In this document: piece after piece, positions 5,934 through 37,515 of the stretch | Numbering within the stretch: position 1 is the first letter of the stretch | Layout: the number at the start of each line of letters is the position of its first letter | Virus record (IMG/VR): IMGVR_UViG_3300031720_000009 | Location: 1-42,994 of that record | DNA from: a virus | Direction: 5' to 3' (one strand) | DNA length: 42,994 nucleotides | Notes under the pieces: model-generated | What the model saw: only the letters and a program-made list of their open reading frames with translations | The model's database searches: none | Told to the model about the DNA's origin: nothing | Position numbers and translations under genes: made by a program

Positions 5934-6124
5934 CGCGTCTCCAAGGCGGCGGGCGCCGCCGCCACCTTGATCATTTTCTCGCAGGTCTGAAACCCGAAGA
6001 ACGGATGATCAACGAGATCCCACCGCACCTCGCGATCGCAGTGCAGGCAATGCTCCATGTCCGCATTCCAGCCGGTGATCGTTCGTCCGCCTTCGCAGGC
6101 TTTTTCGTCGCAGGCATTCATCAC
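5930..6124 (-). CDS. Small Cys-rich protein
   Basis: 64 residues; GGAGGAG sits eight bases before ATG 6124. NACDEKACEGG and EHCLHCDREV give two Cys pairs, followed by FFGFQTCEKM. Probably zinc-binding. It starts inside the 3' part of the gene at 6009-6320. Confidence 0.65.
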   Translation of the reverse strand: MMNACDEKACEGGRTITGWNADMEHCLHCDREVRWDLVDHPFFGFQTCEKMIKVAAAPAALETR

Positions 6125-6322: not shown

Positions 6323-7411
6323 CTATGGCTCCTTCCGGGCGCTGACTGGGCGCACTGCTCGTTTCTGACCCAGCACGTTGGCGTCTACTTCCTCGTCGCG
6401 ATCGCGGGTGGGGCGGCCGGACACGAGCACCTTGTTCAGCTTCGTGATGACGCCATCGAGATCCGCCGCACAGGCATAGCGGAGGCGTTCCTCTTCACTG
6501 TCCGGCGAGCGATTGTAGTGCCACGCCGTATCGCGATCTTTCTCCAACTGCGCGATCAGCGCGCGCAACCTCGCGAGGACGCCGTCGGTCTCTACTCCGT
6601 GGTTATGAGCCGCCACAGCGTCAGCAACATACCCGTCAATCGCGTGACGCGTATCTTGGAGGGCCTGCCGCAGCCCAGCGACGAGGGCGGCGGACTCCTC
6701 AGTAACCAAGTAGCGAGTAGCAAATGTCTCCTGACACTGCGAGGGTGATGATAGATAGCGCTGGATCGCATCAGCGTCCCGTCGTAGTTCATCTACTTTC
6801 GTTCGTAACAACTCACGCAACGGGTCGTAGTGACTGTCTCGCTTCATCTGCTCACGCTGTTCGTCTGTGAGCAACGCGGGCTCGCGGGGGGCGACGAGGG
6901 CGGCTGGAGCATTTGCCTGTGACGACCCGTCGGAAGTGGCGGAGAGGCGAGGATCGCCAGTCTGCGGCTTTCCCGCAGCGCCTTCGAACTCCGATCCCGC
7001 AGTCGTCATCACAGGCAAATTCGAGGAGTGGGGGACGACGAGGGCGGCGTCTACCTGCCCTGTTGGCGATAGACAGCCGACATGCTCAATGCCCAGCACG
7101 ACGAATTCGGGTTGCTGAAACGCCACCGTCATGTAGATCACGCGCTCGGCAAGTTGCTGCCCGCTATACGTCTGCGTGTCCGGCTCAAACTCCTTCAGCA
7201 CCAAGCAATCGCCGACCTGGTAGTCTCGGTCATTCCTGCGGATCTCGAACCGCTTCTGTCCCCGCTGAATGGCGCGGAAGAACTCCGGCCAGCATTTCAG
7301 AAGATGCGTCTTCCCATGCGGCGCGCGGGCGGGGCGGGCGTCTGGATCTCCTGATTCTTGATCGCAAATCACGCAGCGGCCTGCGTGGAAAACATGTACA
7401 CAGGCGCTCAT
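6323..7411 (-). CDS. ASCH/DUF3850 domain protein with long helical extension
   Basis: 362 residues. An N-terminal C/H cluster (CVHVFHAGRCVICD) is followed at about residues 35-105 by a DUF3850/ASCH-type module: KCWPEFFRAIQRGQKRFEIR, NDRDYQVGDCLVLKEFEP and TYSGQQLAERVIYMT. ASCH domains are PUA-like beta barrels that bind RNA or modified nucleic acids; DUF3850 proteins are common in phages and have no settled role. The remaining 250 residues are charged and helical (EREQMKRD, LRTKVDELRRDADAIQRYL, ARLRALIAQLEKDRD), unlike the usual stand-alone domain of about 80-100 residues. ATGA overlap upstream. Confidence 0.75.
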   Translation of the reverse strand: MSACVHVFHAGRCVICDQESGDPDARPARAPHGKTHLLKCWPEFFRAIQRGQKRFEIRRNDRDYQVGDCLVLKEFEPDTQTYSGQQLAERVIYMTVAFQQPEFVVLGIEHVGCLSPTGQVDAALVVPHSSNLPVMTTAGSEFEGAAGKPQTGDPRLSATSDGSSQANAPAALVAPREPALLTDEQREQMKRDSHYDPLRELLRTKVDELRRDADAIQRYLSSPSQCQETFATRYLVTEESAALVAGLRQALQDTRHAIDGYVADAVAAHNHGVETDGVLARLRALIAQLEKDRDTAWHYNRSPDSEEERLRYACAADLDGVITKLNKVLVSGRPTRDRDEEVDANVLGQKRAVRPVSARKEP

Positions 7412-12528: not shown

Positions 12529-12888
12529 TCAGACCGCCGCCTGCAAGATCGGATATGCCCACGCAAAGTACGGCTCGAGCTCAGGATGGTCATGGGCCGT
12601 CGTCTGCAAGATCGTCAGAATCGAGTTGATGAGCAACGCCTGATTGCTCGTCGAGATCCCATCGATCGCATCAAACGCCGCCAGTCCGTCCTTGCAGATT
12701 TCGTAAGACTTCGCCCCAAACGTCATCTGCCCAGGCTGACATGCCGCTTCAAATCCGCCTTTGGCGAAGGCTTCGACTTTGCGCGCGTTCAGCGTCCCAT
12801 CGGGATTTCTGAACGGATCGTGGGCCTTCAGGGTCGCGCAGCCGACCATGCTCAAGGCGAGACCGCCGACCGCAAGCCATGTTCTCAT
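12529..12888 (-). CDS. Lipoprotein
   Basis: 119 residues from ATG 12888 with AAGGAACGG as ribosome site. MRTWLAVGGLALSMVGC is a lipoprotein signal peptide with lipobox LSMVGC, lipidation at Cys17. Mature sequence: HDPFRNPDGTLNARKVEAFA, FEAACQPGQM, YEICKDGLAAFDAIDGI; two further cysteines may pair. It lies beside small membrane proteins, so an outer-spanin or other lysis/envelope role is possible, but spanin features (short Pro-rich chain) are missing. Confidence 0.65.
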   Translation of the reverse strand: MRTWLAVGGLALSMVGCATLKAHDPFRNPDGTLNARKVEAFAKGGFEAACQPGQMTFGAKSYEICKDGLAAFDAIDGISTSNQALLINSILTILQTTAHDHPELEPYFAWAYPILQAAV

Positions 12889-12899
12889 TCCGTTCCTTT

Positions 12900-13091
12900 T
12901 TACCACGGAGCAGGCGGCGTTGGCCCGACGAGCACATACACGACGGCGATACAGGCCACGAGCACGCGCACGAGTTCCCAGACTTGGCCAGCCATCGCGA
13001 AGCCCACGACATTCATGAACATCGGAAACACGACGAGGAAGATCACCACGCAGATCACGGCATAGAGCATCCGGAGCAGGAAATTCTTCAT
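12900..13091 (-). CDS. Two-helix membrane protein, holin-like
   Basis: 63 residues: FLLRMLYAVICVVIFLVVFP and a second hydrophobic stretch LVRVLVACIAVVYVLVG, short loop between, Pro-rich end. Size, two helices and position in a run of membrane proteins fit a class II holin, but such proteins have no diagnostic motif. ATGA overlap upstream. Confidence 0.55.
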   Translation of the reverse strand: MKNFLLRMLYAVICVVIFLVVFPMFMNVVGFAMAGQVWELVRVLVACIAVVYVLVGPTPPAPW

Positions 13092-13318
13092 AATCTCGGT
13101 CCTTTCGGCCAGCTCGGAAGCCCGGCCGGATCGTCCGAACGCCGCTCCGCCCTCCCTTCCGCATGAGAGGCTTTCGCGGTTTGCTCGAGCAATTCTGTCA
13201 GCCGACTATTGACCGCCAAATGCAATTCTCGGATATCTCGCTTGTTGCGCAGCGACACAAGGACCGAGAGTGTCCCCGGAATCGCCGCGACGATCGCCAC
13301 AAGCACGGCATCGCTCAT
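13088..13318 (-). CDS. Small membrane protein with cytoplasmic coil
   Basis: 76 residues from ATG 13318 (ATGA overlap). One hydrophobic segment, VLVAIVAAIPGTLSVLVSL (about 5-23), then a charged helical tail NKRDIRELHLAVNSRLTELL and a disordered end. Resembles one-helix holin/antiholin or spanin-like phage proteins; assignment not possible from sequence alone. Confidence 0.55.
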   Translation of the reverse strand: MSDAVLVAIVAAIPGTLSVLVSLRNKRDIRELHLAVNSRLTELLEQTAKASHAEGRAERRSDDPAGLPSWPKGPRL

Positions 13319-13569
13319 GGATGTGGAGTCCCGGCCTTGTACACCTTCACGACCCATTCCTTGAAGGCATAGAGCGTCCCCTTGCCGGCGACATCCCAGG
13401 TCTCATCGAGATATTCGCCGATTTGCTCGGGCGAGTACGGGCCAGCGCCAAGGGCATGCGTCAGGAGCTTCACCCACGACTTGATGCGCTTCGCGCGATC
13501 GCCATCGCCTTGATTGCAGCATACACCACTGGCGCAATTGACCTGTTGCTGATCATCTCCGTTGCTCAT
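13315..13569 (-). CDS. Hypothetical protein
   Basis: 84 residues. Cys-rich N-terminus (VNCASGVCCNQGDG), then KRIKSWVKLLTHALGAG, YSPEQIGEYLDETWDVAGKG and an amphipathic end. It sits between the two lysis-like membrane genes and is coupled to both by short overlaps. Confidence 0.6.
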   Translation of the reverse strand: MSNGDDQQQVNCASGVCCNQGDGDRAKRIKSWVKLLTHALGAGPYSPEQIGEYLDETWDVAGKGTLYAFKEWVVKVYKAGTPHP

Positions 13570-22491: not shown

Positions 22492-23232
22492 TCACTCGCC
22501 CAGTAGAACGGAGTACCACCGACGTCGATCGTTCTGAATGACCACCGGATCCGCCGGCAGCGTCACGATCTTCACATTGCTGACCTTTACGCGCCGGAGA
22601 CTGTTGACGGCGATCTGCTTGTCTTCCGGCAGCAAGGATCGTCCGTTCATGCCGGCCAAGCGCGTGGCCAAGTTATAGACGAACATTTCGTCATAGCCGA
22701 GCGGGAGATCGTAGGCCGCCGTGAGATTCACGAACAACGGCAGCTGCGCCTTGCGATACAGCCGAATCGAATTCACCGTATTGTTCGGCACCGGCCACAG
22801 CGAAAGGGATCCCAAGCCGCCGATGTATGTGGGGTTGTACCACGCGCCCGTGAAGAGCGTATTCGCTAGGGTTTTGATTCGCAGCGCCTGATATTCATCA
22901 TCGGTGAGCAGCGGATAGGGAATCTCCACCACTTCTGGCGCGATCGCATTCAACACCAGCGCAATCCCATTCAAAGCCGCTTGCGATGGCGGCCGGACCG
23001 TATTCAGATCGCCGCCTGGTCCCACCGTATACGTTTCCTTGTTCGCCACGATCGGATAGGTTTCGATCGAGACGCTCGGATACGTTTGCGTCTGGAGACC
23101 AAGGCCGCCGACGAATCGATTGAGAAAACGGAAGGCTTCCGCAGCATCAGGCCCCGGCAAGGGATCCGAAGCCATCAACACATTTGGTATGCGGAGCGCA
23201 TCGCGAATAATTTCAAGCGCTGAGCTACTCAT
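22492..23232 (-). CDS. P22 gp4-like head-tail connector (tail accessory) protein
   Basis: 246 residues. ALEIIRDALRIPNVLMASDP and DAAEAFRFLNRFVGGLGLQT are the two N-terminal helices of the gp4/adaptor family (iirdALrlxgvl...psxeexxxaLxxLNxml). YDEMFVYNLATRLAGMNGRS matches the conserved helix near the end. P22 gp4 (about 166 residues) extends the portal; this one is longer. Pairs functionally with the portal and gp10-like proteins. Confidence 0.8.
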   Translation of the reverse strand: MSSSALEIIRDALRIPNVLMASDPLPGPDAAEAFRFLNRFVGGLGLQTQTYPSVSIETYPIVANKETYTVGPGGDLNTVRPPSQAALNGIALVLNAIAPEVVEIPYPLLTDDEYQALRIKTLANTLFTGAWYNPTYIGGLGSLSLWPVPNNTVNSIRLYRKAQLPLFVNLTAAYDLPLGYDEMFVYNLATRLAGMNGRSLLPEDKQIAVNSLRRVKVSNVKIVTLPADPVVIQNDRRRWYSVLLGE

Positions 23233-23912
23233 GCGGCCCTCGGTTGGGCGAGCACATCGAAGACATCTCGCCCCGTATACAACAAGGGGAGCGGGGATAC
23301 GTCATATCCTCTGGCATTCAGCCATTCCACGAGATCATCATGGCTATCGCCGTAGCGTTTAAGCTGAATACCGCTCTCAATGACCATCACAGGATGATGC
23401 CGCGCAATCGTCTGCGCGGCGCCGCGCAAGGCTTGGAGTTCGAACCCCTCCAAATCCAGCTTCATGAAATCCAGGCGCTCAAAGACAAACGCATCGAGCG
23501 GCACGACATCAATCCCGTCTTCGGATGGCACGACATAGGTCGCACTACCGTTCCGCTCCCAACGGGCGAGTTTCACGAACGAGCGCGAGGCTCCCAAGGC
23601 GGCTGGAAGTAGCGTGATTTGCTGTCGGCCTTGCGTATTGAAGATCAGGCAATCGAAGGCATCGGGCTCAGGTTCGAAGGCCCACACATGGCCCTCTATC
23701 CCCACGCGGTCTGCGAACGCGACCGTATGATCCCCGATAAACGCTCCGCCATCCACAACCACGCCGCCGACTGGAATCATCGGGCAGAGCAGTTCCTTAA
23801 TGCGCGGATCGTAGTCGGTCAGGCTCCCTGACTGCGCAATGCGCCGCGAGAGCCCATAATCCTGATCTGGCTCAAGCACCGCGATCGTGCCATTCGCGAC
23901 GAGATAGCTCAC
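23229..23912 (-). CDS. FkbM-family methyltransferase
   Basis: 227 residues. VVVDGGAFIGDHTVAFADRV (51-70) is SAM-binding motif I, HVWAFEPEPDAFDCL (75-89) motif II, and RLDFMKLDLEGFELQALRGA (about 143-162) is the FkbM signature. Such enzymes O-methylate sugars or glycans. It is translationally coupled to a glycosyltransferase (ATGA), so the pair may tailor a surface glycan of the virion or of the host. Confidence 0.85.
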   Translation of the reverse strand: MSYLVANGTIAVLEPDQDYGLSRRIAQSGSLTDYDPRIKELLCPMIPVGGVVVDGGAFIGDHTVAFADRVGIEGHVWAFEPEPDAFDCLIFNTQGRQQITLLPAALGASRSFVKLARWERNGSATYVVPSEDGIDVVPLDAFVFERLDFMKLDLEGFELQALRGAAQTIARHHPVMVIESGIQLKRYGDSHDDLVEWLNARGYDVSPLPLLYTGRDVFDVLAQPRAA

Positions 23913-24709
23913 GCGCCAGCCTTCTGCCGCTGGAGGCGAATCAAGTCTTCGGCCCTCGCTAACCGCAGATGCTCGCGCGGCACTTCAGGCTGCGGAAAGG
24001 CCGTAAATGGCTGCGTGTCTGAAAGGACCGTCAACCATTTGCCTTCCTGCTTCAAACAGAACGCCACCGAACTCACGCGATGTCCGAAGCTCACATCAAG
24101 ATCGCAGTAGAGCGGAATGCCAGCAGCTTCCATCTTTCGATAGAACGGAAAATCTTCGGCGTAATCATCGGGCGCCCCAGGCGGGGAGACGAATTCGAAC
24201 CAGCCATCAGCGCCGATGTTCTGATAACACGACGTCTTCATCAGCAGGCCAGCGAGTCCAGCGCCAGCCACCTTGATCAGGCCAGACTCATGGTCCTGCA
24301 TGTAATGCTGCCGTGCATGCCATTTTCGGCCGCCATCACCATCCACCGCATCGTAAATCAGGGGAAAGAACGGCGAGCCGCGGCGCACCGAGAGCGGGAT
24401 CACGGCATCAACCTGTCGCGCAAACAACCGATCCAGATCGCCAGGACGTTCGATGGTGCCAGGATCGAACGGCTGATCATCGTCCAGCATCCAAATGTAG
24501 TCGGCGCCGACAGTGATCGCTTGCCTGACAATCCGATTTCGCGCCCCAGGCACGACGCCTGACATCGAGAAGAACGGCGCCTGATTGATGATTTCGAATT
24601 CTTCGCGTGGACGCGCGCATGTCAGCGCAACGGCTTGATCGAAGGCCCGAAAGACCCGACCTTCCACCAGACACGGAATGCCAATGAGAATACGCGGACG
24701 TGTGGCCAT
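23909..24709 (-). CDS. GT2-like glycosyltransferase
   Basis: 266 residues. ILIGIPCLVEGRVFRAFDQA (7-26), PGARNRIVRQAITVGADYIW (54-73) and MLDDDQPFDPGT with metal-binding D76-D78 define a GT-A fold. IKVAGAGLAGLLMKTSC and PPGAPDDYAEDFPFYRKMEA with the ED acceptor motif complete it; IPLYCDLDVSFGH follows. Known for transferring a sugar from a nucleotide donor; donor and acceptor here are unknown. A 14-bp-stem hairpin and GGAGG lie upstream of the ATG. Confidence 0.8.
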   Translation of the reverse strand: MATRPRILIGIPCLVEGRVFRAFDQAVALTCARPREEFEIINQAPFFSMSGVVPGARNRIVRQAITVGADYIWMLDDDQPFDPGTIERPGDLDRLFARQVDAVIPLSVRRGSPFFPLIYDAVDGDGGRKWHARQHYMQDHESGLIKVAGAGLAGLLMKTSCYQNIGADGWFEFVSPPGAPDDYAEDFPFYRKMEAAGIPLYCDLDVSFGHRVSSVAFCLKQEGKWLTVLSDTQPFTAFPQPEVPREHLRLARAEDLIRLQRQKAGA

Positions 24710-27813: not shown

Positions 27814-27957
27814 TGGAGCGAGGAATTGAAAATTTCTCGCCACACGATCAGATGTCGACTTGATGCTGGATGGTCCGTTCATCGTGCTCTCACAGAGACT
27901 GTTCATCACAAACACCGCACGCCATCACGACCACATGCGCATCGCGAAGTACGGTAA
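27811..27957 (+). pseudogene. Read-through tail of the HNH gene
   Basis: In frame after TAG (27811-27813) comes WSEELKISRHTIRCRLDAGW, then SVHRALTETV and a basic end, to TAA at 27955-27957. Proteins of this family normally continue here with a (S/T)LSEWAxELGIxxxTIxxRLxxGWSxxxAL motif, so the stop replaces one residue, as a single base change (GAG or CAG to TAG) would. The last 33 bp overlap the coat gene antisense. Confidence 0.75.
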
Positions 27958-29160
27958 AATTGTGGCGACTCCCCCTATTGAGTCCAATCTTCGAGGCAGT
28001 TGATCCGTGGTGATCGAGTACTGGTCGACGTACCTCATCGAGATTTTGTCATTGCGCCCGACTTCTTCGGAGGTGCGTCCGGCCTTGGCGCCTGCGAGAT
28101 TGACCGGCAGGTCCGCCATCACGAAGGCGAACGCGCCCGGGTTGAAGAGCAGCGACTGCTTCGAGCTGATCGCGGACATCGTGGCATTGACGGTGCCCGT
28201 GGCGCCCACAAAGGAGATCGAGGCATTGTTGGCCGGCGAGGCCGTGACGGTCTGCAGCGGACCAGACGTGATGATCGGCGGCGCGAAGCTCAACGTGGCC
28301 GTGCTGGCGCCGGACTGATCCGCGAGCAGCACGAACGCTTGCGGATCGCCAGAGTCCGCGTAGCTGTACGGATGCACCGCATTGACACCCGCGAGATAGA
28401 ACGTATCTCCCTGCTTGAAGGCGTAGGTGCCCCACCCGCTCGTCAGAAGCGTTGAGCCGGTCTGGCTGGCGCCGCTCACGAGCGGCGTGCTCTGAGTGAA
28501 CGTGCCCGTGGTATGCGTGGGCATGTTCGGATCCCACATCCAGGCTTGCGCGCCCATCGCTTCGCCCGCAAACTGTCCTGAGCGCCAGTACTCGGAAATC
28601 TGCCGTTGCGGATTGAACTGACCGAAATTCGTCGCGAGCAACTTGCTCTGCGTCTTCGGATCCATCACGACGATCAGATCCTCTGGCACGGCGACGTTGC
28701 GCAACTTCGCGATGCCATCGGTCCACGTCGCATCGGATGTGATCGGCACGCCGGGGCTGCCCATCTGGAAGTAGACATTCCGATAGACTTCCTGCCCGGC
28801 GACGAGATCCCACTTGTTCGCCATCGCCTTGCCGGCGGGCTCGTCGTAGAGATGCTGCGCCTCTTCGATCACGAGCGCATCGTCGGCTGAGGACCAGCCG
28901 TGCGCGACTTGGAACTGATGGTTGATGGTGATCGGGACCGTCTGATTCAGGATCGCCTGGAGCTGCAAGGCCTGGCCTTCGAAGACCTGCCAGCGCTGTT
29001 CGATCCGGACCTGAACGGTATAACCCTTTTTGGCGCCGTCGGCTTCATCGCGCCACGTGCTATTCCAGTCGCGGGAGAATTCGCCGATGAGGCGGCAATG
29101 ACTGTCGAAGTACGCGGCGGTATCCGTCGCGATCCAGTTCGGTGTTAAGAGCGTATTCAC
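27925..29160 (-). CDS. Major capsid protein, P22 coat-like
   Basis: 411 residues from GTG 29160. N-terminus NTLLTPNWIATDTAAYFDSH, GYTVQVRIEQRWQVFEGQAL, ITINHQFQVAHGWSSADDAL, ANKWDLVAGQEVYRNVYFQM, LNVAVPEDLIVVMDP-like segment and a C-terminus MRYVDQYSITTDQLPRRLDS...MRMWS. These are features of the P22_CoatProtein family (HK97 fold; P22 gp5 is 430 residues). The abundant beta insertion after residue 230 corresponds to the extra domain. Most abundant virion protein expected. Confidence 0.85.
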   Translation of the reverse strand: MNTLLTPNWIATDTAAYFDSHCRLIGEFSRDWNSTWRDEADGAKKGYTVQVRIEQRWQVFEGQALQLQAILNQTVPITINHQFQVAHGWSSADDALVIEEAQHLYDEPAGKAMANKWDLVAGQEVYRNVYFQMGSPGVPITSDATWTDGIAKLRNVAVPEDLIVVMDPKTQSKLLATNFGQFNPQRQISEYWRSGQFAGEAMGAQAWMWDPNMPTHTTGTFTQSTPLVSGASQTGSTLLTSGWGTYAFKQGDTFYLAGVNAVHPYSYADSGDPQAFVLLADQSGASTATLSFAPPIITSGPLQTVTASPANNASISFVGATGTVNATMSAISSKQSLLFNPGAFAFVMADLPVNLAGAKAGRTSEEVGRNDKISMRYVDQYSITTDQLPRRLDSIGGVATILPYFAMRMWS

Positions 29161-29206: not shown

Positions 29207-30271
29207 CTAGCGGCGGCGACGCCCGTTCTGATGAAAGGCGCCTCGATGTTCCCGCAGGGACATCTTCGACGGATCCGGCGGTTCGCTGGATCGCGGCATC
29301 GGGCCTGTCTTCACCGGCGTGGGAAGGCGAGGACTCGGGGTAATCATCTGGGCAGGCTCAACGCGCCGGTCCGTACCGTTGACGCCTGCAGCTGAACCCT
29401 GAAACACGTTGCCCAAAGCAACGAGACGCTCAAGCTGATCCTCCACCGGGAGCGCCATAATCTCGCGGGTTTCGGCGAGATGATCCGGTTGGAGCAGGTA
29501 GTATAGCAGTTTTGCGCCGTACGGGCGACTCCAGATCCACAAATCAATCGGGGAGCCCTTCTGCCAGGGCACGGGCTGGCTCGCGATGGCCTCGAAATCC
29601 TTGATCTCGGCTTTGGCCGTCTGCCAGCGTTCCGCGAAACGCTTTTTCCCTTCCGCCTGATCGCGCTCGAGCTGCGCCGCCTGCCGTTTCGTCTCTTCCG
29701 TGCGAATGGTGTCGGCAACGGTGAACGCCGTGAGGTCTTTTAGATACTTCGGATCGGCAACGCCGTAGGGGTATTTCTCCGCATCGCTCGCATCGGGTTC
29801 TTTCAGATCCGAAGGGGCCGAGAATGTCTGACGCGACGTGGGTGCTTCGCGCGCGATCGTCTGGGCGGGTGCCGCTTTCAGATCCCTCACCGCTTGTGCG
29901 ATGGCCTTGCGGCGGCGCAATTCAAAGAGCCGCGGCGATTCGCCCTCATTCGGTTTCAGCCCGAGTGAGTCGGAGACGGCCTCTTCGATTTCGCGCGCTT
30001 CTTTTCCAAGGGCACTGATCTGCTTCAGCTCATCGGGACTCGCATCCTGACTGCGTGCGCGATGGCGCTTCGGCTTCTCTGCAGGCGGTGTCTGTTCCGC
30101 TTCGAGGGCCTGACGCGCCGCTTCCACGGCTCGTGTCCCGCGCTTGTCTGAAGGAAACTCCTCCCGATGATCCGCGAGCGAACCTGTCGATTCGATCGGC
30201 GTGCGCTCAATTGGCGTCTCAACTACCGTCTCGATCGGGGTCTCCGTCGTCTGGACTTCAGTCGGTTCCAT
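29207..30271 (-). CDS. Scaffolding protein
   Basis: 354 residues, highly charged and low in hydrophobic core. Acidic, Thr/Glu-rich start (EPTEVQTTETPIETVVETPI), basic KPKRHRARSQD, helical KQISALGKEAREIEEAVSDS, KRQAAQLERDQAEGKKRFAE, and an Arg-rich end (HQNGRRRR) that would dock on the coat protein. Its position between portal and coat genes is that of P22 gp8. Sequence similarity is not needed for this call. Confidence 0.75.
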   Translation of the reverse strand: MEPTEVQTTETPIETVVETPIERTPIESTGSLADHREEFPSDKRGTRAVEAARQALEAEQTPPAEKPKRHRARSQDASPDELKQISALGKEAREIEEAVSDSLGLKPNEGESPRLFELRRRKAIAQAVRDLKAAPAQTIAREAPTSRQTFSAPSDLKEPDASDAEKYPYGVADPKYLKDLTAFTVADTIRTEETKRQAAQLERDQAEGKKRFAERWQTAKAEIKDFEAIASQPVPWQKGSPIDLWIWSRPYGAKLLYYLLQPDHLAETREIMALPVEDQLERLVALGNVFQGSAAGVNGTDRRVEPAQMITPSPRLPTPVKTGPMPRSSEPPDPSKMSLREHRGAFHQNGRRRR

Positions 30272-31119
30272 TAGGCTCCCGCTAATACTGCGTCAGATTG
30301 TATATTTAGCCACTGCGCGCGCACGCGCCCACCGGAGAACTGATCTTGCGGCCAGACTTCGCCATTGTCCGCGTGACCTTTCGTGATCGGATAGGTGAGC
30401 GACACGCGCCCACTGGCGTACAGATTCACGCTCTCCACCTCGCAGTAATGAACGTCCCAGTAGCAGACCTCGAGCGGTCCCCACTGATAGACCGGCATTC
30501 CATGAACATGATGGTCAACCGGCTTGCCCAACATCGGGTCACCGACATGTGGCTGTCCGTAGGGCTCACGGAAATTCACGCGCCGCGGGCCGAAACACGC
30601 AATCGTGTTCAACGTGCTCTCTAAATCCCGCAGGTTTTGTTCTGGCCCCAGAACAATATTGACTTTGATATCGCGTTTACTGGCGAGGATCTCTGGATAA
30701 TTCGGACAGGCGCCGCCCATCATTTTCCGATTGACCGCCTGATCGACCGAACAGATCGTCAGGCTGGCTACATCGTAGGCGTCCCATCGATCGCGATGAA
30801 CGCCAAAGGCCACGCCGTTGGTTCGCACGCCGATAGGCACAGCCAGAATTTGAAGCGCGTCCACCAGTTCGCGCGTATGTCGGAAGAGCAGCGGATCGGT
30901 ATTTGTGCCGGTGACATATACCGCCTTCACTTGTTGTGCGCGACATTGCGCGATGAACTCGTCTATCCCAGCGAGCGGCCACGTATCAAGCACATTGAGC
31001 GGATCAAGCGCCATCATGTGCTGACCGATGCAGAAATAGCAGGAACGATTACATGGCCCGCTCAGATGCACATTACCGAACCAATGCGGAAATGCGCCAT
31101 GGTCGTTCAGACATCCCAT
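30271..31119 (-). CDS. Radical SAM enzyme
   Basis: 282 residues. GPCNRSCYFCIGQ gives the CX3CX2C cluster motif at C23, C27 and C30 for a [4Fe-4S] centre that cleaves SAM. VKAVYVTGTNTDPLLF (about 64-79) is the GGE-like SAM-contacting strand, and LAVPIGVRTNGVAFG and DIKVNIVLGP are later barrel strands. No twitch or SPASM cysteine set is clear; WGPLEVCYWDVHYCEVESVN holds two further Cys. Substrate unknown. The gene is coupled (ATG/TAA overlaps) to scaffold and to a small gene after the portal, an unusual place for such an enzyme. Confidence 0.8.
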   Translation of the reverse strand: MGCLNDHGAFPHWFGNVHLSGPCNRSCYFCIGQHMMALDPLNVLDTWPLAGIDEFIAQCRAQQVKAVYVTGTNTDPLLFRHTRELVDALQILAVPIGVRTNGVAFGVHRDRWDAYDVASLTICSVDQAVNRKMMGGACPNYPEILASKRDIKVNIVLGPEQNLRDLESTLNTIACFGPRRVNFREPYGQPHVGDPMLGKPVDHHVHGMPVYQWGPLEVCYWDVHYCEVESVNLYASGRVSLTYPITKGHADNGEVWPQDQFSGGRVRAQWLNIQSDAVLAGA

Positions 31120-31361
31120 TAAGCGCCCGCCTCATCAGGCTGAGAGACCAATACATCGAAGTGCGCAGTCGTCGTATCGGTCTGAATGTCATACTGCATC
31201 ACTAAGCGAATATGACGCGCGCCGGTGAAGATCTGGGCGCCAGGCACGTGAGCATCGAAGGGCTTCGTTGTAGATCCTTCCGGAAGCCCGCGACATAGCT
31301 GTTCGAGAGCCGCCATGATCGCAGCCGCATCGAACTTCCTCGAAGAGACAATCACGTCCAT
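31119..31361 (-). CDS. Small hypothetical protein beside the portal
   Basis: 80 residues: VIVSSRKFDAAAIMAALEQL, GAQIFTGARHIRLVMQYDIQ, TTAHFDVLVSQPDEAGA. Alpha/beta with no known motif. 1-bp overlaps with the portal and radical SAM genes, so it is translated with both. Confidence 0.65.
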   Translation of the reverse strand: MDVIVSSRKFDAAAIMAALEQLCRGLPEGSTTKPFDAHVPGAQIFTGARHIRLVMQYDIQTDTTTAHFDVLVSQPDEAGA

Positions 31362-33823
31362 CAGGCTCCTGCCTCTGTCGTCGGCTCAGGCTGGAGCGCG
31401 GCGGCTTGCTGCTGTTGATCAAGCGTGTTCTGATGTTCCTGTGCGGACATCGTCTGCTCATGTTGCTGTTGATCTGCTTGCAAGGCCATGGCGCTCTGAT
31501 GTTCCAGGTTGCTCTGCAGATGATCATGGACCTGCTCACCGACACGAGCGCGTTCCTCGAGAAACACTTGCATCATGTTCTGCAATGTTTCGATCTTCGC
31601 GCCGATCGCGGCGACCGCTAATTTGGTTTCATTGTTCTCGCGTGAACGCTGCGTCTCGCGCTCTTCCTGCATCTCAGCGATTTTGAACTTGCCCGCCGTC
31701 TCTTGCGCCTTGGCTTTCATTTCCTGATCGGCCATCTGGAGCAACTGGTTCGCATGATCGAGCTGCGCTTTCATGCCTGTGAGTTGCTGTTGCACCATCG
31801 GCGGCAGCGGCTGTTGGCCTTGCTGCTTCTGTGCGACGTACTGTGCCACCGGAGGAATCAAGCCGCCCACACGCCAACGCTCCGCGATCTCTTTGTGCCC
31901 TGGCTGATCGATCGTGTCGAAGAGCACGTCGCCCATGATGCCCATCGCTTGCGGCACCGTCTCGGCGATCTTCCCGAGAAATTCTGCCTCCTGCGATCGG
32001 CGCTCGTCGCTGTTCGGTTGAATCTTGATCACCACGTTGAAGTTGGCATCGGGCGTCAGTCGGTACTGCGGCGTGACTGGCGTTCCCATTCCTTGCGGAA
32101 CATTTGGCTGTGCCACTTGATTACCTGTTTGAAAAGCCGCGGCAATGGTGCGGGTCTCTTCTTTGTTGTTGCCAGTGATGATTCGGATGAGACGTCCAGG
32201 CCGCTTGCCGTAGATCGGGTAGAGCAGATTGTTGATGATTTGTCCTTCATAGCGAATCGATCGTTTCAGATTGTCCAGATAGTCGGACTTGCCCAACTGC
32301 GATTGCCCGATCAACGCGGACAGCGCTTTCCCACTCTTGATCGACGGCGCGACATTGCCAAGTTCTGGATCGCCTGTGCCCATCGTGGACTTCAGTGCCG
32401 CATCAAAGAGCGCGACAGATTGCGCGATGGCCGAAATATTCGTATCGATCTGTGTCCGCGTCGGGGGATTCAGCGGACGCCCTTGCTCGTCGTACTGGTT
32501 GTAGTGCAACACCGGAATCGGCTTCGTCGTCGCGATCGCGTACTCATCATCGAAGCCTTCCGTTGCCGCGGGATCGCCTTGGAACGGCGCGATCGGGGAG
32601 TAGGCCACGGCTTCGACTTGCTTCGTGACCATCGCGTTGAAGCCTTCTTGCGCACCGCGGCCAGGGCGCACCATCCCTTGCGCGCGTCGTTCGTTGTCAT
32701 AGGGCTGCAGCTCTTCGCCCATGACTTTCACAATCGGAATGTCGGGTCCCTCCCAATCGGCTTCATCCAGGAGATCATAGCCGTCGAGCTTGCACCATTT
32801 GATTTTCTTCTGCACGACCGTGCGACGATTCACGATCATGAGGTCTTTCGGGAAGTCTTCATCGAACCAGTAGACGTCACCGTTCGTGAGTTGCACGAGT
32901 TGCCGCGAGACGCGTTCGGTGTACCAGTAGTTCATCACGCGGACCCCGCGCGTGATCGTGCCATCGCGTTCTTTCGTCGAGGTGAACCAGTCGGGCGACT
33001 CATCCCCGAGGGCGCGCCATTCAGCGTCAGTGCAGTCCACGAGCGAGTTCCTGCGCGTCTTCCCGTCTTTGCTCACGCGCTCGGGATACTCGGCACAGTA
33101 CGCATCCCACGACCGATCGCTACCGATGAACCCCCAGTCGGCATCGGATCCGTCCGGCTGTTCATGAAACGGATCCACGCTCACGCAGGCTTGGTTGTAG
33201 AACCGCTCGACGTAGACTTCGCGGTCCATCGTCTTGCCAGGCGCGTAGCGCACGCAGACGCCGTAGAAGCCGCGGCCCGCGATCGTGGCGCGCATCGCCG
33301 CCCAGAACCGCGCGTCTTCCGCTTCGCTGCTCCGCTGAATTCTCCGCATTAAGCCTTCGCGCAGTTCGATCTCTTCGGTCGGTGGCGCCTGCGCGATCTC
33401 GCCGAAATCATCGGCCGGCGCAAGCGCGATGCCGAGATCCGCTTGCCGAATGCCATTGAGCACTTGCTTGACGGGCTCACGCTGCTTATTGATCGTGATG
33501 GTAGGGCGCGCGGGAATCGCCGGCAAGGTCGCCGTCTGCGCTTGGCCCTTGCGTGCGTTGAGAATTTCTGTCGGCCACTGATCGCCCGCGTAGAACCGCA
33601 AATCCTCAAGCTCGCGTTCGCGCTGTTTGCGATCGGCCTCTTCCGCTTGGGCGAATCGAGCTTTCGCTTCGTCAACGATCGCCTGCTTCTCGACGGTCGA
33701 GAGACGCTTGACAGGCGCGATGACGGGAACATCTGAGGCGAGAGCGTCTGGAATGGTGCCGTTGACGCGTCGGCTGCGCGGCGTGCTGATCGTACGAGAG
33801 ATTTTGATCTCGCGCTTCGCCAC
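31361..33823 (-). CDS. Portal protein, P22 type
   Basis: 820 residues. ELEDLRFYAGDQWPTEILNA, RPTITINKQREPVKQVLNGI, the region VCVRYAPGKTMDREVYVERF and DVYWFDEDFPKDLMIVNRRT, and GAQEGFNAMVTKQVEAVAYS belong to the P22 portal family (gp1 is 725 residues). The C-terminal ~130 residues are Gln/Ala-rich coiled coil (LQNMMQVFLEERARVGEQVH...DQQQHEQTMSAQEHQ), matching the long helical barrel of P22 that projects into the capsid. Forms the dodecameric DNA gate for terminase and the head-tail joint. Confidence 0.9.
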   Translation of the reverse strand: MAKREIKISRTISTPRSRRVNGTIPDALASDVPVIAPVKRLSTVEKQAIVDEAKARFAQAEEADRKQRERELEDLRFYAGDQWPTEILNARKGQAQTATLPAIPARPTITINKQREPVKQVLNGIRQADLGIALAPADDFGEIAQAPPTEEIELREGLMRRIQRSSEAEDARFWAAMRATIAGRGFYGVCVRYAPGKTMDREVYVERFYNQACVSVDPFHEQPDGSDADWGFIGSDRSWDAYCAEYPERVSKDGKTRRNSLVDCTDAEWRALGDESPDWFTSTKERDGTITRGVRVMNYWYTERVSRQLVQLTNGDVYWFDEDFPKDLMIVNRRTVVQKKIKWCKLDGYDLLDEADWEGPDIPIVKVMGEELQPYDNERRAQGMVRPGRGAQEGFNAMVTKQVEAVAYSPIAPFQGDPAATEGFDDEYAIATTKPIPVLHYNQYDEQGRPLNPPTRTQIDTNISAIAQSVALFDAALKSTMGTGDPELGNVAPSIKSGKALSALIGQSQLGKSDYLDNLKRSIRYEGQIINNLLYPIYGKRPGRLIRIITGNNKEETRTIAAAFQTGNQVAQPNVPQGMGTPVTPQYRLTPDANFNVVIKIQPNSDERRSQEAEFLGKIAETVPQAMGIMGDVLFDTIDQPGHKEIAERWRVGGLIPPVAQYVAQKQQGQQPLPPMVQQQLTGMKAQLDHANQLLQMADQEMKAKAQETAGKFKIAEMQEERETQRSRENNETKLAVAAIGAKIETLQNMMQVFLEERARVGEQVHDHLQSNLEHQSAMALQADQQQHEQTMSAQEHQNTLDQQQQAAALQPEPTTEAGA

Positions 33824-35587: not shown

Positions 35588-37036
35588 TCAGGCCATGTAA
35601 TCGAGACTCGTGCCTGGTCGGGGCTCGGAGAAACCACGCCGATTGCGCCGGCGCTGCTCTTTCTCGGCTTGTGTGCGCTGGCCGGCGCAAAAGTTCAGCA
35701 TGATGTTCTCGACGCAATGAATCGCGTTCGCGAATTTGTCATCTTCGCGCGCTTGCCGAACTTCCTTGTTGCTCACCGAGACGAAATGCGGATCCCATGT
35801 CATGCCGGCCTCAAACGCGATGTGCATGAAGGGCGACGGCTTCAATCCTTCGCGCGAGGCGATGAACCAATGGTCTTCCGAGTTATTCACGATGAGCGAT
35901 TCTTCCCCGTTCGGCGTACGGCGTCGCAAATAGCCGGCGATGTCTTCGATCATCGCGAGTCGCACGTCGGGCGCGTTCCCGTTTTCGCGATAACGCACCG
36001 CGAAGCCTGCATCGCGGAGCAGATTCAGCGCCGTGAAGCGCGCGTTCATGCTCGTCGTGGTTTCTCCCATGGGTGCGGTGCACGCGAGCGGGCGAGCCAT
36101 GGGCGGCAACCAGCGGGCCCGATGCTCCTGCACGATCGGCAGGAAGTCATCGAGCATGATTTCCGATCCGCGCAGACCGCCGATGAGCGTCAGGCCGCCG
36201 CTGTAGCGCACTTGCGCCAGCACATACGTCGGATTGTGTTTCCCAATCTCGAACGATTCCACGAAGAAGCCCGTCGTGTTGATGCTGATCGGGCGGTGAT
36301 GCAGATCACGGCGATAGAGCCCTTCGAAGACGGGTACGCCCGTGATATTCGGCCCACGACGGCCGAGCACCATCGTCTGATGCTTCGGATGTTCCGGTGG
36401 ATACGTCCGGAGAATGCTCTCGATCGATTCAGCGGGCAGATGGCGATTGTCGAAAACACTCAGCGAGTACAGACGCCGACCCTTGATGCGATTGTCTTCT
36501 GGAAATTCTTTCGAGAGCCAGAACTCCGCATCTTCAGGATTCGCCACGAAGGTCAACTGAAACGGAAAGTTTCGTCCGGTCATCGTGGCCGTGAGATCGG
36601 GCCGCAAGCGGGCGCGGAGTTCGCCCGCGACTTGCTGGGCCATCTCTTCGACCTGATCGCCGGCGATTCTCGAGACGCCGAGGCCGCGTATTTTGTTGAA
36701 CTGCTCGATCGCGCTGACGGTTTTCAGCCCGAACATATAGGCCATCGAGCCGTTCTCGAGCACGAAGCGTTTTTCTTTCGATTCCCAGGATGCCAAGATG
36801 CCGCGCAGCGAGAGTAGCTCCTGAAAGGCCGGCGAGAGTTTTGTATCAACGGCATCTTGTGACCAGCGAAACAGCAGAATCGGAATCCCGGGCCACTTCA
36901 GCAGCGCGTCGATTTCCTTGTCGAGAAAGACCGTGGTCTTCGCGGAGTTGAGCGACCCTTCGATCAGGATTTCTGGCGTCTTCCAATCAGCCTTGATGGC
37001 TTCGTGAATCGGCATTCCCGTCCAGTCAAGGTTCAT
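35588..37036 (-). CDS. terL: Terminase large subunit (TerL)
   Basis: 482 residues. Walker A variant GSLNSAKTT (27-35), Walker B region VSRIAGDQVEEM (121-132, D127 and E130/E131), coupling segment LTFVANPEDAEFW, then the RNase H-like nuclease half with GFFVESFEIGKHNPTYVLAQ and GGLRGSEIMLDDFLPIVQEH, whose acidic residues are likely metal ligands. It packages DNA into the prohead through the portal. Gene order terminase, then portal is conserved, but eight small genes are inserted between. It overlaps the sigma-like gene by 4 bp. Confidence 0.85.
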   Translation of the reverse strand: MNLDWTGMPIHEAIKADWKTPEILIEGSLNSAKTTVFLDKEIDALLKWPGIPILLFRWSQDAVDTKLSPAFQELLSLRGILASWESKEKRFVLENGSMAYMFGLKTVSAIEQFNKIRGLGVSRIAGDQVEEMAQQVAGELRARLRPDLTATMTGRNFPFQLTFVANPEDAEFWLSKEFPEDNRIKGRRLYSLSVFDNRHLPAESIESILRTYPPEHPKHQTMVLGRRGPNITGVPVFEGLYRRDLHHRPISINTTGFFVESFEIGKHNPTYVLAQVRYSGGLTLIGGLRGSEIMLDDFLPIVQEHRARWLPPMARPLACTAPMGETTTSMNARFTALNLLRDAGFAVRYRENGNAPDVRLAMIEDIAGYLRRRTPNGEESLIVNNSEDHWFIASREGLKPSPFMHIAFEAGMTWDPHFVSVSNKEVRQAREDDKFANAIHCVENIMLNFCAGQRTQAEKEQRRRNRRGFSEPRPGTSLDYMA

Positions 37037-37515
37037 GCGGCCATTCTCTCACGAGCTTCGTGCAGCAATTGGGTCACGCGATCAGGTCCGACCCCGAGCG
37101 CACGTCCGATGTCCGCGTGTGAGCACCCCGCAAAATAGAACAGCCGGACCGCGGTGCGTAAGCGCGGCGAGAGACGCTGCATCGACTGACGTGCCGTGAT
37201 TTGTGAAATCAGCCGCGGCTCGAGCTCGCGTGCATCCGCATAATCGTGTGCGAGCGGTTCAAACGTCGGCGCAACGTACCGCGAGCCTTGCTGCTGAGGC
37301 CGTGAGCCCATGTACCACTTGCGCAAGGCATCCTGCATCGCATGCTTCACGCGAACCGCCGCGTACCCGTCGAAGCGTCCGCGCCCGTCGAAGTGTTTCA
37401 GTGCGAGCGCGTACCCGACGAGTCCGGCCGAGATCAGTTCATCGCGATCCCGAGGGGGAAACTTCTTCGCGATGGACGTGATGAGCCGCATCGGATCGCG
37501 ACGATCATCGCTCAT
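37033..37515 (-). CDS. Sigma-70-like transcription factor
   Basis: 160 residues. Region 2 at 24-67: RDELISAGLVGYALALKHFD then RFDGYAAVRVKHAMQDALRK, the core-binding and -10-recognition helices. Region 4 at 115-158: LSPRLRTAVRLFYFAGCSHA then DIGRALGVGPDRVTQLLHEA, the -35-binding helix-turn-helix. The linker (68-114) has no clear region 3, so it is a compact two-domain sigma. It takes the position usual for the small terminase and is coupled to TerL. It may direct late transcription; a DNA-recognition role in packaging is also conceivable. Confidence 0.8.
   Translation of the reverse strand: MSDDRRDPMRLITSIAKKFPPRDRDELISAGLVGYALALKHFDGRGRFDGYAAVRVKHAMQDALRKWYMGSRPQQQGSRYVAPTFEPLAHDYADARELEPRLISQITARQSMQRLSPRLRTAVRLFYFAGCSHADIGRALGVGPDRVTQLLHEARERMAA

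Follow-up and report, generated by a model that had tools for sequence, protein, structure and literature searches.

What a radical-SAM (rSAM) enzyme might do when its gene lies among the head genes of a virus is the question raised by the window analyzed here, a virus record of 42,994 bp. The gene belongs to an operon with the order portal, 80-aa ORF, rSAM, scaffold, and coat, consisting of the following members:

31361..33823, minus strand: P22-type portal protein, 820 aa (PF16510, E=7e-97)
31119..31361, minus strand: 80-aa ORF between portal and rSAM, with no family match
30271..31119, minus strand: radical-SAM gene, 282 aa (MGCLNDHG...), recognized by its ORF, profile matches, and family alignment
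29207..30271, minus strand: head scaffolding protein, 354 aa (phrog_8865, E=1.4e-9)
27925..29160, minus strand: P22-type coat protein, 411 aa (PF11651 and phrog_283)

The first three junctions are 1-nt stop/start overlaps, with TGATG between the portal gene and the 80-aa ORF and TAATG on both sides of the rSAM gene. The first-pass annotation had described the gene as locked by overlaps into the head operon; such overlaps are indeed found on each side of it, but the 80-aa ORF separates it from the portal gene. The same overlaps agree with the proposal that the gene is arranged for expression with the head genes, as is predicted here. A weak relative (32%) of the 80-aa ORF is located upstream of the portal gene in L094, a related locus.

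The rSAM reading frame starts with ATG and includes no internal stops. The Radical_SAM profile of Pfam scores 27.6 bits (E=3.8e-6) with the window protein in hmmscan, just below the cut-off of 29.5, 28.7 bits in a six-frame search, and 29.7 bits, above the cut-off, when the neighbours in frame are included; it matches 13 of the 14 members of the family alignment. In an alignment extended to 18 full-length sequences, in which the relatives are 49–60% identical to the window protein, more than 50 columns are invariant, including M1-G2-C3, the cluster motif, REPYGQ, and WDVH. The main conserved elements, numbered according to the window protein and defined by this alignment except where stated, are listed below:

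31105..31119, minus strand: N-terminal MGCLN; M1, G2, C3, and N5 invariant, L4 nearly so
31030..31053, minus strand: CX3CX2C [4Fe-4S]/SAM motif CNRSCYFC, residues 23–30 (C23, C27, and C30)
30892..30912, minus strand: TGTNTDP, residues 70–76, at the position of the GGE motif, placed by alignment to viperin
30814..30825, minus strand: RTNG, residues 99–102; R99, T100, and N101 invariant
30550..30570, minus strand: REPYGQP, residues 184–190, a family signature; R184–Q189 invariant
30448..30462, minus strand: YWDVH, residues 220–224, the C-terminal family signature; W221–H224 invariant

The window protein thus combines the two hallmarks of the radical-SAM superfamily, the CX3CX2C motif and the radical-SAM fold. 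Because the key residues of the cluster motif, TGTNTDP, and RTNG are invariant or nearly so in the 18 sequences, the gene is real and its motifs are not due to chance. All three motifs are intact, in accord with the original description of an active-type radical-SAM enzyme, and the protein is predicted to be intact and catalytically competent. Judged from the alignment, it is a member of a strongly constrained radical-SAM family that carries no curated name.

Comparison with the known radical-SAM enzymes places the family nearest to viperin and MoaA, and inside none of the known families. No curated library names it, and the best NCBIfam match of the window protein, MoaA, reaches 26.5 of the required 284 bits. 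The predicted structure is fair overall (mean pLDDT 81, pTM 0.82) with a weak C terminus, and it indicates no substrate; a deeper alignment gave no better model. A fold search with this model, comparing it with MoaA, viperin, and the peptide-modifying enzymes as had been proposed, returned all of these types; the score cut-offs of MoaA and viperin are not reached. Among the leading hits, MoaA (GTP 3',8-cyclase) matches the fold best over the full length (TM 0.63 by query length), but its C-terminal cysteines, which serve a second [4Fe-4S] cluster, are absent from the rSAM family. Viperin, which belongs to the radical-SAM nucleotide dehydratases (SAND), has a TM of 0.53; it shares with the family the radical-SAM core over residues 16–180, the type of cluster motif, a similar length, and the lack of an auxiliary cluster. 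Aligned viperins, however, have AGG-EPF where the rSAM family has TGTNTDP, and the family differs further by its own invariant MGC, REPYGQ, and WDVH, as well as by its NAD gene neighbourhood.

The kinship with viperin is the source of one alternative, according to which the enzyme dehydrates or otherwise modifies an NTP, its product affects NAD-dependent or polymerase reactions, and the link to NAD genes is indirect. Viperin profiles match, although weakly, all 14 members (best 3e-9), and fungal viperin heads the profile search of the PDB (8e-7). In addition, ddhCTP inhibits the NAD+-dependent activity of GAPDH (PMC9642334), and viperins are present in vibrio phages that carry NARP2 (PMC12028318). 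On the other hand, the window protein attains only 11.9 of the 180 bits required by the viperin family, the alignment is limited to residues 16–180, and MoaA is the better match in fold. This kinship makes a nucleotide substrate plausible and keeps the viperin-like alternative alive, although we regard it as rather unlikely.

Two further alternatives are drawn from this comparison. The appearance of SuiB and SkfB among the fold matches would suggest a maturase of RiPP-type peptides, but no invariant or nearly invariant cysteine is found past residue 30 in the 18 sequences, and consequently the C-terminal SPASM clusters of such maturases are absent; nor does a conserved precursor gene adjoin rSAM in the 20 loci whose neighbours were clustered. 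We therefore consider a maturase highly improbable. An enzyme modifying RNA, DNA, or tRNA, QueE-like or other, would fit the fact that phages often carry QueE, and models of QueE weakly match a few relatives. Those matches are far below the cut-off, and the window protein itself has none. The deazaguanine partner genes that accompany QueE are also missing: QueC, QueD, FolE, and Tgt were not detected when 30 ORFs of the window, rSAM included, were scanned against Pfam, as the first-pass annotation had reported for queuosine and deazaguanine partners. As a nucleic-acid modifier would also leave the NAD neighbours unexplained, this alternative has very little probability. Filing of the family under MoaA, viperin, QueE, or the SPASM maturases was rejected, since either the score cut-offs or the defining cysteines are lacking.

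The position in the head operon had led to the idea that the enzyme modifies a virion protein during assembly. In its favour, the gene is coupled to the head genes by the 1-nt overlaps, and the homologue in L039 also adjoins head genes, as it lies between genes that appear by eye to encode a large terminase and a portal protein. However, a search with the portal protein identified 25 related loci, in which the coat gene, and often the scaffold gene, follows the portal gene where the contig is long enough, and rSAM is matched in none of the 25. In the nearest of them (L094), the portal protein is 67%, the scaffold 58%, and the coat 76% identical to that of the window, and the gap between portal and scaffold contains a 149-aa ORF; the same gap is occupied by a 354-aa ORF in L099 and by several small ORFs in L110, and is empty in some others. 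Since its content differs among related portal loci, this gap is a variable cargo slot, of which rSAM is one occupant. The remaining homologues are mostly found in other settings, away from head genes; two of these are bacterial and adjoin NAD genes, and NAD salvage is the context that recurs. Modification of a virion protein was therefore set aside, with only a very slight chance left to it. A lack of the gene in all relatives that share the head operon had been proposed as the mark of a random insertion. At the portal–scaffold position the gene is indeed lacking in these relatives, but the insertion is not a meaningless one, since strong constraint is seen among homologues from unrelated phages and settings and the NAD salvage context recurs.

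The distribution of the family is sparse. Scans of IMG/VR yielded about 25 matching contigs, several of which are near copies of one another, and the viral carriers are unrelated contigs. Among 84,980 bacterial and archaeal genomes only two carriers were found, a Berkelbacterium (L026) and a Saccharibacterium (L027), both Patescibacteria. No further cellular copy was detected in 393 Saccharimonadia apart from G002 or in 55 genomes of the class of G001 apart from G001 itself, and 380 genomes of the same phylum added no member, their remaining matches being to radical-SAM proteins in general. None of 50,697 named phage records has a match to rSAM, and a plasmid search gave only MoaA-like matches. 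The GC content of the copies, which spans 39 to 61%, tracks that of the surrounding DNA, and they are thus not recent arrivals.

Several contigs were treated separately. L018, L019, L024, and L047 were kept out of the alignments because their sequences are probably chimeric at the rSAM gene. L018 and L019 switch sequence inside this gene at about 6000–6110, being the same downstream and different upstream, whereas L024 and L047 switch to another sequence about 230 bases into the gene, rSAM residues 1–78 in L024 being followed by a sugar-dehydrogenase-like reading. These junctions probably reflect chimeric assembly or recombination. L090 and L091–L093, the latter added as matches to the C-terminal pattern, were dropped as chance matches. 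A diverged relative in L085 (about 12775–13430; 30–38% identity in two pieces) has a frame that looks broken or split, on a contig that also includes DNA polymerase-like and clamp-loader-like genes. In L045 (11157–13310), two more radical-SAM genes follow the family member downstream, both within 2.5 kb, with no match in named phages.

An indication of function comes from the neighbouring genes. When the neighbours in 20 loci were clustered without naming any genes beforehand, rSAM itself was present in nearly all of them, followed by a cluster of NadM and NrtR-type Nudix proteins in five loci and by NAMPT in three. If closely related phages and single pairs with replication genes are disregarded, NAD genes are the only recurrent neighbours of note. 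In two large phage contigs, the gene is a part of the NadM–NAMPT group, with the order nadM-rSAM-NAMPT in L038 (gaps of 0 nt to nadM and 72 nt to NAMPT) and rSAM-nadM-NAMPT in L042, where rSAM is 19 nt ahead of nadM; Pfam identifies NadM with Nudix and NAMPT_N beside rSAM in both. In the Saccharibacterium, the order is pncB-pncA-rSAM-nrtR-nadE-nadD, and in the Berkelbacterium nrtR-rSAM. NrtR adjoins both cellular copies (Nudix and NrtR_WHD, 82–86 bits), and Pfam recognizes around the Saccharibacterial copy an isochorismatase-type PncA, NAPRTase (PncB), and NAD_synthase (NadE), with NadD assigned by PF01467 and position. The tree does not unite the NAD-adjacent copies in a single clade, so that the link to NAD has either arisen or been retained repeatedly.

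NAMPT occurs in 11 of the 26 records searched, including most of the large viral ones, but as large phages often encode it (1910 of 50,697 phage records), its mere co-presence was set aside as evidence. The NAD pair of most large phages lies far from rSAM; the two are adjacent in two of eight large contigs (viral according to the IMG/VR label), with a rough chance probability of 0.004 for a test chosen post hoc. The window has no match to NAMPT, NadM, or Nudix, as is also the case for most other small phage records, and for this reason its link to NAD rests on relatives at about 50–55% identity. Phages are known to salvage or reconstitute NAD+ through NAMPT–NadM, NARP1 (Adps–Namat), and NARP2, and the literature on NARP that was searched nowhere mentions a radical-SAM enzyme.

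Regulatory sites point in the same direction. The palindrome AGTGT-N7-ACACT is found 65 and 80 nt upstream of the starts of the two cellular rSAM genes. In the Saccharibacterium, rSAM diverges from pncA, and the shared promoter contains TTAGTGT-ATTGTCA-ACACTAA, and the motif recurs, with the same 7-nt centre, in front of nrtR and in the nadE–nadD interval; in the Berkelbacterium, the palindrome is found upstream of nrtR and again upstream of rSAM. The whole Berkelbacterial genome has two such sites, exactly those at rSAM and nrtR, and the Saccharibacterial genome four, at pncA/rSAM, nrtR, nadE/nadD, and one other place. The fourth box (L127, 1501–2182) precedes a 209-aa ORF without known function. 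When the 120 bp ahead of each cellular copy were shuffled 20,000 times, such a site appeared 0 and 3 times. As the mycobacterial NrtR palindrome, GTTTTCGA-N7-TCGAAAAC, has the same 7-nt centre (PMC6800001), we assign AGTGT-N7-ACACT as the predicted NrtR operator of these bacteria.

The stricter form TAGTGT-N7-ACACTA is present in 24 of 245 Saccharimonadia genomes. One locus was examined in each of the 24: in seven genomes besides G002 it lies at pncA-pncB or nadD/nadE, in one near nrtR, and in 15 no match to these genes was found at the locus. The genome G560 has 11 such sites, far above most related genomes. Both cellular homologues thus show the characteristics of an NrtR regulon of NAD metabolism, an operator-type site upstream and adjoining NAD genes, with the palindrome placed before rSAM in the same manner as before pncA, nadE/nadD, and nrtR. 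The operator is absent at the window copy, and no NrtR-type box is found within 400 bp upstream of any phage copy. Most of the weight of the NAD link falls on these operators, which are assigned by pattern and come from two genomes. The viperin-like alternative gives no direct reason for them. The terms 'radical SAM' and 'NrtR' were not found together in the literature searched.

The reading that we favour, with moderate confidence, is that rSAM represents a new family of radical-SAM enzymes that would serve the metabolism of NAD or nicotinamide nucleotides, and that it is carried as phage cargo in the window. The [4Fe-4S] cluster bound to CX3CX2C would cleave SAM to yield the 5'-deoxyadenosyl radical, which would then remove hydrogen from a nucleotide (nicotinamide or adenine) of the NAD pool; candidate substrates are NAD(P), NMN/NaMN, ADP-ribose, and nicotinamide or a damaged form. 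The product may help to keep or rebuild usable NAD. Since the enzyme stands alone at 282 aa in unrelated phages, with no universal partner gene, its substrate is suggested to be available in any host. In phages, rSAM is carried as a moron. Large phages usually encode NadM and NAMPT, the pair for nicotinamide salvage, in addition to it, and in them the enzyme may help against defences that deplete NAD or when the pool of the host runs out. In small phages, that of the window included, it is carried alone and would draw on the NAD pool of the host; in the portal–scaffold slot, the gene is probably read by translational coupling. NrtR binding, the class of substrate, the reaction, and what the phage gains are all inferred.

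We know of no radical-SAM enzyme for NAD synthesis, salvage, or repair, and literature searches found none. We can speculate, as a tentative proposal falling short of an even chance, that the family performs a hitherto undescribed step of NAD metabolism based on radical-SAM chemistry, by which nicotinamide nucleotides would be modified, repaired, or supplied in an alternative way. NrtR is predicted to control this step in a few Patescibacteria; phages would spread it as a third part of NAD salvage, in which it may help against immunity that depletes NAD. A highly constrained family without a name that is tied to NAD genes in bacteria as well as in phages indicates that a reaction has been missed, one that phages possibly use when bacterial defences destroy NAD.

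Elsewhere in the window, an FkbM methyltransferase gene adjoins a glycosyltransferase-like gene with a weak match to phrog_842 (23229–24709), a gene of the Sigma-70 family (ECF-like; 37033–37515) overlaps by 4 nt the start of a large-terminase-like gene, and a 362-aa protein (6323–7411) contains a DUF3850/ASCH domain.
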